NCBI RefSeq assembly: GCF_000299935.1
Contig: NZ_AMRL01000015.1
Coordinates: forward strand, 1-64,000
Origin: Oceanibaculum indicum P24
GTDB lineage: Bacteria > Pseudomonadota > Alphaproteobacteria > Oceanibaculales > Oceanibaculaceae
Direction: 5' to 3'
Length of the DNA: 64,000 nt
Both the position numbers and the translations under genes were made by a program. The notes under the pieces are model-generated. The model was given only the letters and a program-made list of their open reading frames with translations, did not search any database and was not told the DNA's origin. How positions within the stretch are numbered: the stretch's first letter is position 1; the number at the start of each line of letters is the position of its first letter. Of this stretch, positions 20,653 through 24,991 are shown one piece after another.

Positions 20653-22338
20653 ATGCCCGTTCTTCCCATCCTGTCCTATCTGCTGCTGGCCCTCGGCCTC
20701 TCCTGGCTGGTGGCACTGCCCTTCCGCCTGCCGACCGAATGGCCAACGCATCTGGTGGCGTTTTCGGTCGAGGCGTTGATCGTGCTGGCTGCCCTCGCCC
20801 TGGTGCCGGCACTGCAAAGCCGGCGTGTACGGCATCTTGTGGCCGCGCTGGTGGCGCTGACTGCCATGCTGGCGCTGGGCGACCTGATGATCCGGCTGGC
20901 GCTGAACCGCCCCCTGAACCTGACTCTCGACCTGCCGCTGGTCCGCGCGCTCTACGATCTGGCAACCGGTACCTTCGGCCTGTGGGGCGGACTTGCGCTG
21001 CTGGCCGGGCTGGGTCTGATCCCACTGGCGGCCTATGGGCTGACAATGCTGGCCACCCGCAGCGTGCAGCGGATGGCCCGGCATCCTGGCGTGCGCGCCG
21101 CGGCGCTGCTGCTGGCGCTGACCGGCGGCACCGCACAAATCCTGCAAGCCGAAAAGCCGGAGTATTTCGGCACCTACTGGCCGGCCTCGACCAGCGCCGG
21201 CGTGACTCTGGCGAGCCAGTGGACGCAATTCCGGACGTTGCGCACCGTCGAGCCGGCCTTCCGCGCCGCCGAGGCCGAGGACAACCTGCGCGATATTCCG
21301 CAGGGCCGGCTGCTGAGCGGGCTGAAAGGCGCGGATATCGTGCTGGCCTTCATCGAATCCTATGGCGAAAGCGCACTGACCGATCCGCTCTACACGCCAC
21401 GCATCGGTGCAAGGCTGGAGCACTTTGCCGCCACGGCGGAGACCGCCGGCCTGCATACCGCATCCGGCTGGCTGGTCTCCAGCATCACCGGCGGACAATC
21501 CTGGCTGGCGCATGCCTCCGTGCTGTCCGGCCTCACCATCGACAGCCAGCAGCGCTACGACCTTTTGACCACCGGCAGCCGCCGCACGCTGGAGCGCTAT
21601 TTCGCGAAGGCCGGCTATCGCACCGTCGCCTTTGAGCCCGCCATCACCCGGCCCTGGCCGGCCGGCGACTTCTTCGGTTTCGACGCGACGCTGTCCGCCG
21701 CCGACATGGGATACCGGGGGCCGGCCTTCGGCTGGAAGACCATGCCGGACCAGTTCACGCTGCACCGGTTCGAGCAGACAGAACGCCGCCTGCCGGCAGG
21801 GGAACGACCGCCGGTCTTCGCCAAATTCTCGCTGATCGACAGCCACGCCCCCTTCGCGCCGCTGGCGCCGCTGGTTGCGGGCTGGGAGCGGCTGGGCGAC
21901 GGCGCGCTGTTCCACGACCTGCCACCGGAGGGCGGGGAGCCGGACTCGCTCTGGCAGGATACCGGCCGCCTGCGCCAGGCCTATGCGGCATCGCTGGACC
22001 GCGCGCTGCAGGTGCTGCAATCCTATGCCGCGCGCCATGTCGATGACCGCACACTGCTGATCCTGCTGGGCGACCACCAGCCGCCGGGCATCATCGCCGG
22101 CGACACGGAGTCGCAGGCCGTGCCAATCCATGTGCTGAGCGGCGATCCCGCCCTGCTGGCCCCCTTCCTCGACTGGGGGTTCCGGCCAGGCATGACACCC
22201 GCCCCCGACCAGCCGCGGCCGCCGATGGCCGCGTTCCGCGATTTCCTGGTGCAGGGCTTCAGCCCGCAGGACGACCGGCGGATCGCCCGCAGCGGCGCGG
22301 CGGCGGTCGAACTGGACGGCGCCCGGCAATCCCATTAG
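20653..22338 (+). CDS. Membrane-anchored sulfatase-like (alkaline phosphatase superfamily) enzyme
   Basis: A 561-residue protein with four or so membrane segments in residues 1-165, then a periplasmic alkaline-phosphatase-superfamily domain. Candidate metal ligands are E235 in FIESYGE and D474/H475 in LLGDHQPPG; S283 in TGGQSWLAH is the likely nucleophile position by comparison with LTA-synthase-like and phosphoethanolamine transferases. ATG at 20653 was chosen over an upstream start because the hydrophobic segment begins right after it. It lies 25 bases after galE and may modify the surface glycan with a phosphoryl group, or be a sulfatase. The substrate is not known. Confidence 0.7.
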   Translation: MPVLPILSYLLLALGLSWLVALPFRLPTEWPTHLVAFSVEALIVLAALALVPALQSRRVRHLVAALVALTAMLALGDLMIRLALNRPLNLTLDLPLVRALYDLATGTFGLWGGLALLAGLGLIPLAAYGLTMLATRSVQRMARHPGVRAAALLLALTGGTAQILQAEKPEYFGTYWPASTSAGVTLASQWTQFRTLRTVEPAFRAAEAEDNLRDIPQGRLLSGLKGADIVLAFIESYGESALTDPLYTPRIGARLEHFAATAETAGLHTASGWLVSSITGGQSWLAHASVLSGLTIDSQQRYDLLTTGSRRTLERYFAKAGYRTVAFEPAITRPWPAGDFFGFDATLSAADMGYRGPAFGWKTMPDQFTLHRFEQTERRLPAGERPPVFAKFSLIDSHAPFAPLAPLVAGWERLGDGALFHDLPPEGGEPDSLWQDTGRLRQAYAASLDRALQVLQSYAARHVDDRTLLILLGDHQPPGIIAGDTESQAVPIHVLSGDPALLAPFLDWGFRPGMTPAPDQPRPPMAAFRDFLVQGFSPQDDRRIARSGAAAVELDGARQSH

Positions 22339-22382: not shown

Positions 22383-23534
22383 GTGTCCGCCGCAAGTGCC
22401 CTGCCTCCCCTGCCTGCCTCGCCCGCAATCCGTCCGGCGACGGCGGCGGATATCGACGGTTTGCTGGAGCTTGAAGCGCACAGTTTCGAGACCGACCGGC
22501 TGACCCGTCGGAACTTCCAGTATCTGCTGACCCGCGCCCATGCCGCCTGCCTGCTGGCGGAAGACAAACAGGGCAATCTGCTGGGCTATGTGCTGGCGCT
22601 GTTCCGGCGCGGCACCTCGCTGGCGCGGATCTATTCTCTGGCGGTGTCGGCAAAGGCACGCGGCCAGGGCATCGGTCAGGCGCTGCTGGCCGCTGCGGAA
22701 CGCGCCGCCATCGAGGAACATGCCTGGCTGATGCGGCTTGAGGTGCGGCCCGACAACCAGTCGGCGATCCGGCTGTACGAAGCCGCGGGCTACCGCCCCT
22801 TCGGGCGCTATCTCGACTATTACGAGGATCACAGCGAGGCTGTGCGCTACCAGAAGCGGCTGCGTCCCGACGTGGTGCCGCCGGAAACCCGCGTGCCCTA
22901 TTACAGCCAGACCACGGATTTCACCTGCGGGCCGGCGGCGCTGATGATGGCGATGAAGGCGCTGGACCCGGAAACCGAGCTGGGACAGCGGCTGGAAATC
23001 CAGCTCTGGCGCGAGGCGACCTCGATCTTCATGTCGTCTGGCCATGGCGGCTGCGGCCCCTATGGCATCGCGCTGGCGGCCTGGCGGCGGGGGTTCGCGG
23101 TCGATCTCTATGTCAGCGGCGAGGCGCCCTTCTTCCTGGACACGGTGCGCAGCGCGGAAAAGAAGCGCGTCATCCAGCTGGTCTCCGACGAGTTCACCGA
23201 ACAGATGGCGGAAACCGACATTGCCGTGCATAACCATGCGCTGACGCTGGACGAGATGACGGTGGCGCTGGAACAGGGCGCGCTGCCCATCGTTCTGATC
23301 AGTCTTTACCGCATGTATCGCGAAAATGTGCCGCACTGGATCGTGGTTCATGCGCAGGACGAGCGCTTCGTCTATGCCCACGATCCGCTGGTCGATCCCG
23401 ACTATCTGGATCTGATGTCCGACAAGGCCAACATGCCGATACCGAAAAGCGAGTTCGAGACAATGGCACGCTACGGCCGCAACAACCTGCGTGCCGCCAT
23501 CGTGCTGAAGCCACGGGAGCGAACAGGGTCATGA
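22383..23534 (+). CDS. GNAT acetyltransferase fused to a C39-like peptidase
   Basis: A 383-residue two-domain protein. Residues about 15-160 are a GNAT fold with the acyl-CoA loop KARGQGIGQALL (91-102) and a RimI-like LYEAAGYRPFGRY. Residues about 168-375 are a papain-like C39-family domain: Cys182 in TDFTCGPAALMMA is the likely nucleophile, His318 in PHWIVVHAQ the base and Asp334 in YAHDP a third member. The start is GTG at 22383; no good ribosome site is visible, so the exact start is uncertain. It overlaps the next gene by 4 bases (ATGA). Combined with the ATP-grasp partner it suggests making, trimming and acylating a peptide. Confidence 0.8.
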   Translation: MSAASALPPLPASPAIRPATAADIDGLLELEAHSFETDRLTRRNFQYLLTRAHAACLLAEDKQGNLLGYVLALFRRGTSLARIYSLAVSAKARGQGIGQALLAAAERAAIEEHAWLMRLEVRPDNQSAIRLYEAAGYRPFGRYLDYYEDHSEAVRYQKRLRPDVVPPETRVPYYSQTTDFTCGPAALMMAMKALDPETELGQRLEIQLWREATSIFMSSGHGGCGPYGIALAAWRRGFAVDLYVSGEAPFFLDTVRSAEKKRVIQLVSDEFTEQMAETDIAVHNHALTLDEMTVALEQGALPIVLISLYRMYRENVPHWIVVHAQDERFVYAHDPLVDPDYLDLMSDKANMPIPKSEFETMARYGRNNLRAAIVLKPRERTGS

Positions 23535-24991
23535 GCGACTGGGTCATTGTCGTTGACCGCCGGGCCGACTTCACCGGCATGGAGGAGGACCGGGCGATCC
23601 TGCGCACGCGCGAATATATCGCGCCACCGCAGAACCTGAAGCTGCAGCACCCCAAGATCATCAATTTGTCGCGCAGCTATGCCTATCTCTCCCAGGGCTA
23701 TTACTGCTCGCTGCTGGCCGAGGCGCGCAGCCACCGCGTGCTGCCCACGGTCGATACCATCCTGCAGCTGCGCCAGCGCAGCCTCTATTCCGGCGAGATC
23801 GCCGACCTGGAGGAGGAGCTGAACCGCCGGGTGAAGCGGCTGGTCAGCCCGCCCACCGAATCCTTCCGGCTGCGCATCGCCTTCGGCTATCCCTATGACA
23901 GCCGCTTCCAGGCCTTCGCCCGGCATGTGTTCGACCGCTTCCGCTGCCCGCTGCTGGAAGTCACGGTGCGGCATGGCGAATGGCTGAAGATCACCGGCAT
24001 CAGCGCGCTCGGCATCGACGATCTCGATACGGAAGAACACGTCCTGTTCAACTGGGCGCTGGACCAGTACACCCGCGCCGGCTGGCGCCAGCCGAAGACG
24101 CGCGCGCCGGCGAAATACACCATGGCAGTGCTCCATAACCCGAAGGAGGAGCTGCCGCCCTCCGACCCGGCCTCGCTGAAGAAGCTGATCCGCGTCGCCG
24201 AGGGCATGGGCGTGGATGTGGAGCTGATCGAGAAAAAGGATTATCTGCGCCTCGCCGAGTACGACGCGCTGTTCATCCGCGAGACCACGACCATCGAGAA
24301 CCATACCTACCGCTTCGCCAAGAAGGCGGAGCTGGAAGGCATGCCGGCCATCGACGACCCGACCTCCATCCTGCGCTGCACCAACAAGGTCTATCTGGCG
24401 GAGCTGCTGAAGGCCAACAAGGTGCCGACGCCGAAGACCGTGGTGGTCAACGCCATGAAGAGCCTGGAGGAACTGGAGGGCGAACTGCCCTACCCGATGG
24501 TGCTGAAGATCCCCGACGGGGCCTTCAGCCGGGGCGTGCACAAGGTCGGCGACCGGGCCGAGCTGAAGAAGATGACCCGTGAGTTGCTGGAGGAATCCGA
24601 CCTCATCCTGGCGCAGGAATTCATGCCGACCGATTATGACTGGCGGGTCGGCGTGCTGGATGGCGAACCGCTGTTCGTCTGCCAGTATCTGATGGCCAAG
24701 AAGCATTGGCAGATCGTGAAGCATAATGCCGACGGGCCGGCCACCCATGGCGGCTTCAAGAGCTTCGCCGTGGAGCAGGCGCCGCCGGAAGTGGTGGAGG
24801 TCGCGGTGAAGGCCGCGCGCCTCATCGGCAACGGGCTCTATGGCGTGGACCTGAAGCAGAACGAGCGGGGCGTCTTCGTCATCGAGATCAACGACAACCC
24901 CAACCTCGACACCGGAGTCGAGGATGCGGCACTGAAGGACGAGCTGTGGAAGCGCCTGGTGCGCTGGTTCCTGAAACGGCTGGAGGCTTAA
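23531..24991 (+). CDS. RimK-like ATP-grasp ligase with RLAN N-terminal domain
   Basis: A 486-residue carboxylate-amine ligase. Residues 1-190 match the RimK-like ATP-grasp N-terminal (RLAN) region (INLSRSYAYLSQGYYCSLLAEAR at 44-66 and GYPYDSRFQAFARHVFDRF at 119-137). The ATP-grasp module spans about 285-486, with the KIPDGAFSRGVHK phosphate loop (326-338), WRVGVLDGEPLFVCQYLM, and metal ligands in FVIEINDNPNLD (E452, N454). ATP-grasp enzymes of this kind add amino acids to peptide or protein ends through acyl phosphates. The substrate is unknown. Translation is coupled to the GNAT-C39 gene. Confidence 0.85.
   Translation: MSDWVIVVDRRADFTGMEEDRAILRTREYIAPPQNLKLQHPKIINLSRSYAYLSQGYYCSLLAEARSHRVLPTVDTILQLRQRSLYSGEIADLEEELNRRVKRLVSPPTESFRLRIAFGYPYDSRFQAFARHVFDRFRCPLLEVTVRHGEWLKITGISALGIDDLDTEEHVLFNWALDQYTRAGWRQPKTRAPAKYTMAVLHNPKEELPPSDPASLKKLIRVAEGMGVDVELIEKKDYLRLAEYDALFIRETTTIENHTYRFAKKAELEGMPAIDDPTSILRCTNKVYLAELLKANKVPTPKTVVVNAMKSLEELEGELPYPMVLKIPDGAFSRGVHKVGDRAELKKMTRELLEESDLILAQEFMPTDYDWRVGVLDGEPLFVCQYLMAKKHWQIVKHNADGPATHGGFKSFAVEQAPPEVVEVAVKAARLIGNGLYGVDLKQNERGVFVIEINDNPNLDTGVEDAALKDELWKRLVRWFLKRLEA

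Follow-up and report, generated by a model that had tools for sequence, protein, structure and literature searches.

A conserved GNAT and RLAN ATP-grasp ligase core with a dispensable DUF3335 domain in Oceanibaculum indicum P24 and other Pseudomonadota

RimK targets a ribosomal protein, LysX and ArgX a carrier protein; the acetyltransferases nearest to the one described here act on proteins. RLAN and DUF3335-GNAT systems were reportedly noted by Iyer, Abhiman, Burroughs and Aravind in 2009 and comprise the same Pfam families as the present locus. DUF3335 is described as a papain-like family that lies near Guanylate_cyc_2 rather than with the transporter-linked C39 peptidases; its members are often fused to a GNAT domain, for which the 2009 paper of Iyer et al. 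is cited (PMC10318531). Glutathionylspermidine synthetase/amidase (GspSA) is a known case in which a ligase is joined to an amidase that depends on a Cys (PMC6272389). No functional study of the pair was found in the literature searched, and a GNAT and ligase core with repeated loss of the C39-like domain was not found in the accessible papers. Sequence surveys had already brought out these families and the fusion of DUF3335 to GNAT; the present analysis adds the conserved core, the exclusion of NAGGN as the product and the weakening of a RiPP reading.

The pair is found in a window of 64,000 nucleotides (positions 1 to 64,000 of contig NZ_AMRL01000015.1 of O. indicum P24). Both genes and the features within them are on the + strand. 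The first gene (22383..23534; GTG start, 383 aa) encodes a fusion of a GNAT domain and a DUF3335 domain (C39-like, papain-fold). The second gene (23531..24991; 486 aa) encodes an RLAN domain followed by a RimK-like ATP-grasp ligase. The start and stop codons overlap in an ATGA of 4 bases (23531..23534), which may couple the translation of the two genes; the -4 spacing is also found in several relatives. These coordinates, frames and overlap agree with an earlier note made from the sequence alone. Each gene is present in a single copy in the host genome.

The GNAT domain (22422..22868, residues 14-162) is Ard1/RimI-like. Its CoA-binding loop reads ARGQGIG, it shows the YY.D...A motif known from N-terminal acetyltransferases, residues 35-137 match Acetyltransf_1 (Pfam, 64 bits), and the best matches in the fold search are Ard1 and RimI, with Z about 22 (Ard1 4pv6, Z 22.6). 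The NCBIfam cut-off for RimI (TIGR01575) is not reached (76.1 vs 86.4 bits); the fold is the same. The DUF3335 domain (22893..23510, PF11814 coordinates) matches the Pfam model over its whole length (residues 171-376 of the fusion, model 1-206 of 206, 285 bits). The predicted catalytic residues Cys182 (codon 22926..22928) and His318 (codon 23334..23336) are invariant in 64/64 fusions. The predicted third triad residue, Asp334 (codon 23382..23384), is Asp in 56/64 fusions and Glu in 8/64; Gln176, the likely oxyanion residue, shows no variation across the 64 aligned fusions. The GNAT domain and this triad had been named correctly in the earlier note, whereas its C39 label has to be replaced by DUF3335: Peptidase_C39 (PF03412) gives 13.7 bits vs a cut-off of 22, and the fusion partner is a GNAT domain, not an ABC exporter. 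A canonical C39 peptidase involved in bacteriocin export was rejected on these grounds. The AlphaFold2 model of the fusion has a pLDDT of 93.0 and a pTM of 0.88. The four domains of the two proteins have dN/dS values of about 0.08-0.32 when the window is compared with three congeneric genomes. Purifying selection acts on all of them in this genus, so the DUF3335 domain is not decaying here.

The RLAN domain of the ligase (23609..24049, residues 27-173, PF14401 coordinates) scores 139 bits vs a gathering score of 25 (Pfam). It is followed by a LysX/ArgX/RimK-like ATP-grasp module (24107..24988, residues 193-486), for which RimK/ATP-grasp_3 models give 39-43 bits (PF08443, 38.7 vs 21). In the fold search, whose matches for the two proteins came from the ATP-grasp and GNAT domains, these residues match LysX (3vpd), ArgX (3vpb) and RimK (7qyr) with Z 27-28, vs about 24 for D-Ala ligases. 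The ATP-grasp site, said earlier to be intact, consists of invariant residues: K286, K326, R372, D440, E452 and N454 are found in 77/77 aligned ligases. Three of them, D440, E452 and N454 (codon span 24848..24892), are the predicted Mg/ATP ligands. Loss of the Cys or of the ATP-grasp ligands in relatives had been raised as a possible objection; neither is mutated in the alignments, though the whole DUF3335 domain can be absent. The cut-off of TIGR00768 (RimK alpha-L-glutamate ligase) is not reached (90.8 vs 143.4 bits); the fold is the same. In place of the acceptor-side stretch of RimK and LysX the family has one of its own, HWQ...H...GG, so their amino acid specificity is not transferable to this ligase. 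The AlphaFold2 model, whose local confidence is high like that of the fusion model, has a pLDDT of 89.6 and a pTM of 0.61, the latter making the predicted domain arrangement uncertain. The nearest named ligases are those of Inquilinus, an uncultured Rhodospirillales and Azospirillum. Judged by its family, the protein is probably an amino acid ligase.

Among 299 Pseudomonadota genomes, RLAN was found in 56 and DUF3335 in 47: both families in 46 genomes, RLAN alone in 10, DUF3335 alone in 1. DUF3335 is thus present in 46/56 genomes with RLAN vs 1/243 without it (Fisher p = 4.5e-43, kinship ignored). The two genes are adjacent in 44 of the 46 genomes that have both; G194 and G366 retain both without linkage. 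The ligase of G194 adjoins a GNAT-only partner, and a GNAT-DUF3335 fusion of the same family is found at a distance (L181:6496-7701, L182:6400-8475). A GNAT gene adjoins the ligase in 77/80 named loci; one of the remaining three is a contig that begins inside the ligase. Alphaproteobacteria have the fusion gene and the ligase gene co-directional and in this order; in Pseudomonas and others the two diverge, and two genomes have the ligase first. Linkage that outlasts such rearrangement is strong evidence for a shared pathway, which bears out the pairing that the earlier note proposed to look for across genomes. Species of Pseudomonas, Azospirillum, Mesorhizobium and Bartonella are among the carriers that have a name.

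In the genomes that have RLAN and lack DUF3335, a GNAT of the same subfamily adjoins the ligase in 10/10 cases (L055; L185-L192, L196). The GNAT likewise lacks the DUF3335 domain in 22/77 named pairs. No DUF3335 domain was found elsewhere in the loci of these GNAT-only named pairs, nor in the genomes of the RLAN-only set. On the ligase tree, the presence or absence of the domain changes 10 times, and at least 8 of these changes are forced by well-supported branches. Three genomes have two RLAN systems; in the copies read, one has the fusion and the other a GNAT-only partner. The fixed core consists of the GNAT and the ligase, and the DUF3335 domain is an accessory that was repeatedly lost. Because this domain is absent from many pairs while the GNAT stays by the ligase, the cleaving step is accessory too. 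The scheme of ligation, cleavage and acylation proposed earlier keeps its pairing of ligase and GNAT but not cleavage as a required step.

The branch of stand-alone DUF3335 proteins is apart from the fused forms (SH-aLRT 94), inside which three rhizobial-type paralogues fall; a constraint that puts all unfused DUF3335 proteins together is not rejected (p-AU 0.15). The trees would suit one early fusion of GNAT and DUF3335 followed by losses. The extra DUF3335 proteins have an N-terminal part without a Pfam match (L177:5136-6194, L177:14189-15394, L178:8248-9465). In L177, from one of two rhizobial-type genomes, their genes adjoin genes for solute-binding proteins and for an oligopeptide ABC transporter, which hints at small peptides as the target of DUF3335. 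The stand-alone DUF3335 genes L020 and L022 come from one family within the class; that of L020 lies between putative dihydrolipoamide succinyltransferase and dihydrolipoamide dehydrogenase genes.

Within 1.5 kb of the pair, no short ORF is conserved across genera, the exceptions being gene overlaps among close kin; this agrees with the earlier statement that a precursor peptide gene is absent. No third gene is conserved beside the pair across genera. A larger operon was rejected: the upstream sulfatase-like gene and the downstream KdsD gene are not common to relatives. The sulfatase-fold protein (20653-22338, weak PF00884) ends 44 bases before the fusion gene and is possibly co-transcribed with it; it is not kept across genera. 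An anti-phage system was rejected, since PADLOC gave no match for the pair. Phage cargo was rejected as well, PHROG giving only generic acetyltransferase and ligase matches. NAGGN was rejected as the product: the ligase scores 23.8 vs 569 bits with TIGR03103 and belongs to the wrong family, and the host has a separate, genuine synthetase. The latter (G000:C1:187021-188649, locus L206, region L212) scores 901 bits with TIGR03103 and follows an AsnO-like (asparagine-synthetase-like) gene, so that the host is a probable producer of the osmolyte NAGGN. In the ribosomal protein S6 of the host (L205, G000:C3:153279-153545), a long repeat tail rich in Arg, Gly and Asp (ERGDRGDRGDRG...) leads up to the C-terminus EGDVA.

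There is about an even chance that the pair is a self-contained cytoplasmic module in which free small molecules are built into a capped amide conjugate. The ligase would phosphorylate a carboxylate with ATP and then couple it to an amine, most likely that of an amino acid; the bond would be a peptide or isopeptide bond, like those made by RimK, LysX and ArgX. The GNAT, of the alpha-amino acetylating type, would cap the substrate or the product using acetyl-CoA. The papain-like domain would be an accessory hydrolase that splits the product amide for turnover, proofreading or recycling. It may be likened to the GspSA amidase, ligase-coupled and of opposite action, here dispensable; it could also act on another molecule. 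We infer the chemistry from the protein families, and the order of the steps, the small-molecule substrate and the role of the DUF3335 domain are likewise predicted from sequence. A small molecule is proposed because there is no conserved short ORF and no third gene, and because divergent DUF3335 paralogues are encoded next to oligopeptide ABC transporter genes in one genome. It is conceivable, though we lean against it, that the product is an undescribed N-acetylated metabolite, a small peptide or amide other than NAGGN that is widespread in Proteobacteria, and that the pair carries its own hydrolase, discarded many times.

A protein target is a serious rival, although we consider it unlikely. 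As RimK does with S6, the ligase would extend a cellular protein by amino acids, at its C-terminus or on a side chain; the GNAT would cap the protein or the tag, and the DUF3335 domain would remove the tag. The fold of the ligase is nearest to RimK and LysX/ArgX, the GNAT is nearest to protein N-terminal acetyltransferases, no dedicated precursor gene is found, and no protein of the host genome exceeds the TIGR00768 cut-off for the RimK family; all this agrees with such a target. The RimK acceptor-site stretch is not kept, however, and the domain that would remove the tag is lost in many lineages. The end of S6, the natural candidate, lacks a terminal Glu, which argues weakly in the same direction.

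Salvage or detoxification of peptides is improbable: here the DUF3335 domain would split a small peptide that is toxic or has been imported; the peptide or one of its fragments would be acetylated by the GNAT, and the ligase would re-form or conjugate it. It would fit the oligopeptide ABC transporter genes beside related DUF3335 proteins in one rhizobial-type genome and the creatininase-like gene that adjoins a stand-alone DUF3335 gene. The conserved core is nevertheless the synthetic half and not the cleaving half, and the fused systems have no conserved transporter next to them. RiPP pathways include both ATP-grasp ligases and C39 peptidases (PMC8939145), so a graspetide-like pathway, in which a ribosomal precursor peptide, from a gene close by or at another place, is matured by the ligase and the peptidase, was also weighed. 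It is very improbable, given that short ORFs within 1.5 kb are shared only as overlaps among close kin, that there is neither a transporter nor a conserved third gene, and that the domain is DUF3335, not transporter-linked C39, and is often missing.

About a fifth of the sampled Pseudomonadota genomes (56/299) carry the RLAN ligase system. With the GNAT and the ligase as minimal unit, the compound to look for is narrowed to a ligation product that carries an acetyl group. If the small-molecule module is real, the losses of the DUF3335 domain are a natural experiment in which synthesis with turnover can be compared with synthesis without it.

Compared with GspSA, the pair has in common an ATP-dependent ligase with a Cys-His amidase of opposite action. 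GspSA differs in its families (CHAP amidase and GSP synthetase), in having both domains in a single chain and in having no GNAT. The Pfam scan (E up to 0.1) gave no CHAP or GSP-synthetase match, and the likeness would be one of functional analogy, not of membership. N-acetylglutaminylglutamine synthetase (Ngg, TIGR03103), whose product NAGGN is the best known of those made by a GNAT with an ATP-grasp enzyme, shares the combination of a GNAT and an ATP-grasp ligase; it belongs to another sequence family and is without DUF3335. RimK, LysX and ArgX share the fold of residues 193-486 and the ATP-grasp residues; the present ligase differs by its extra RLAN domain, its other acceptor-side stretch and its score below TIGR00768. 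Ard1/Naa10 and RimI share the GNAT fold (Z about 22), the YY.D...A motif and the acetyl-CoA loop; the present GNAT, below the RimI equivalog cut-off, differs in being fused to DUF3335 and tied to a ligase gene.
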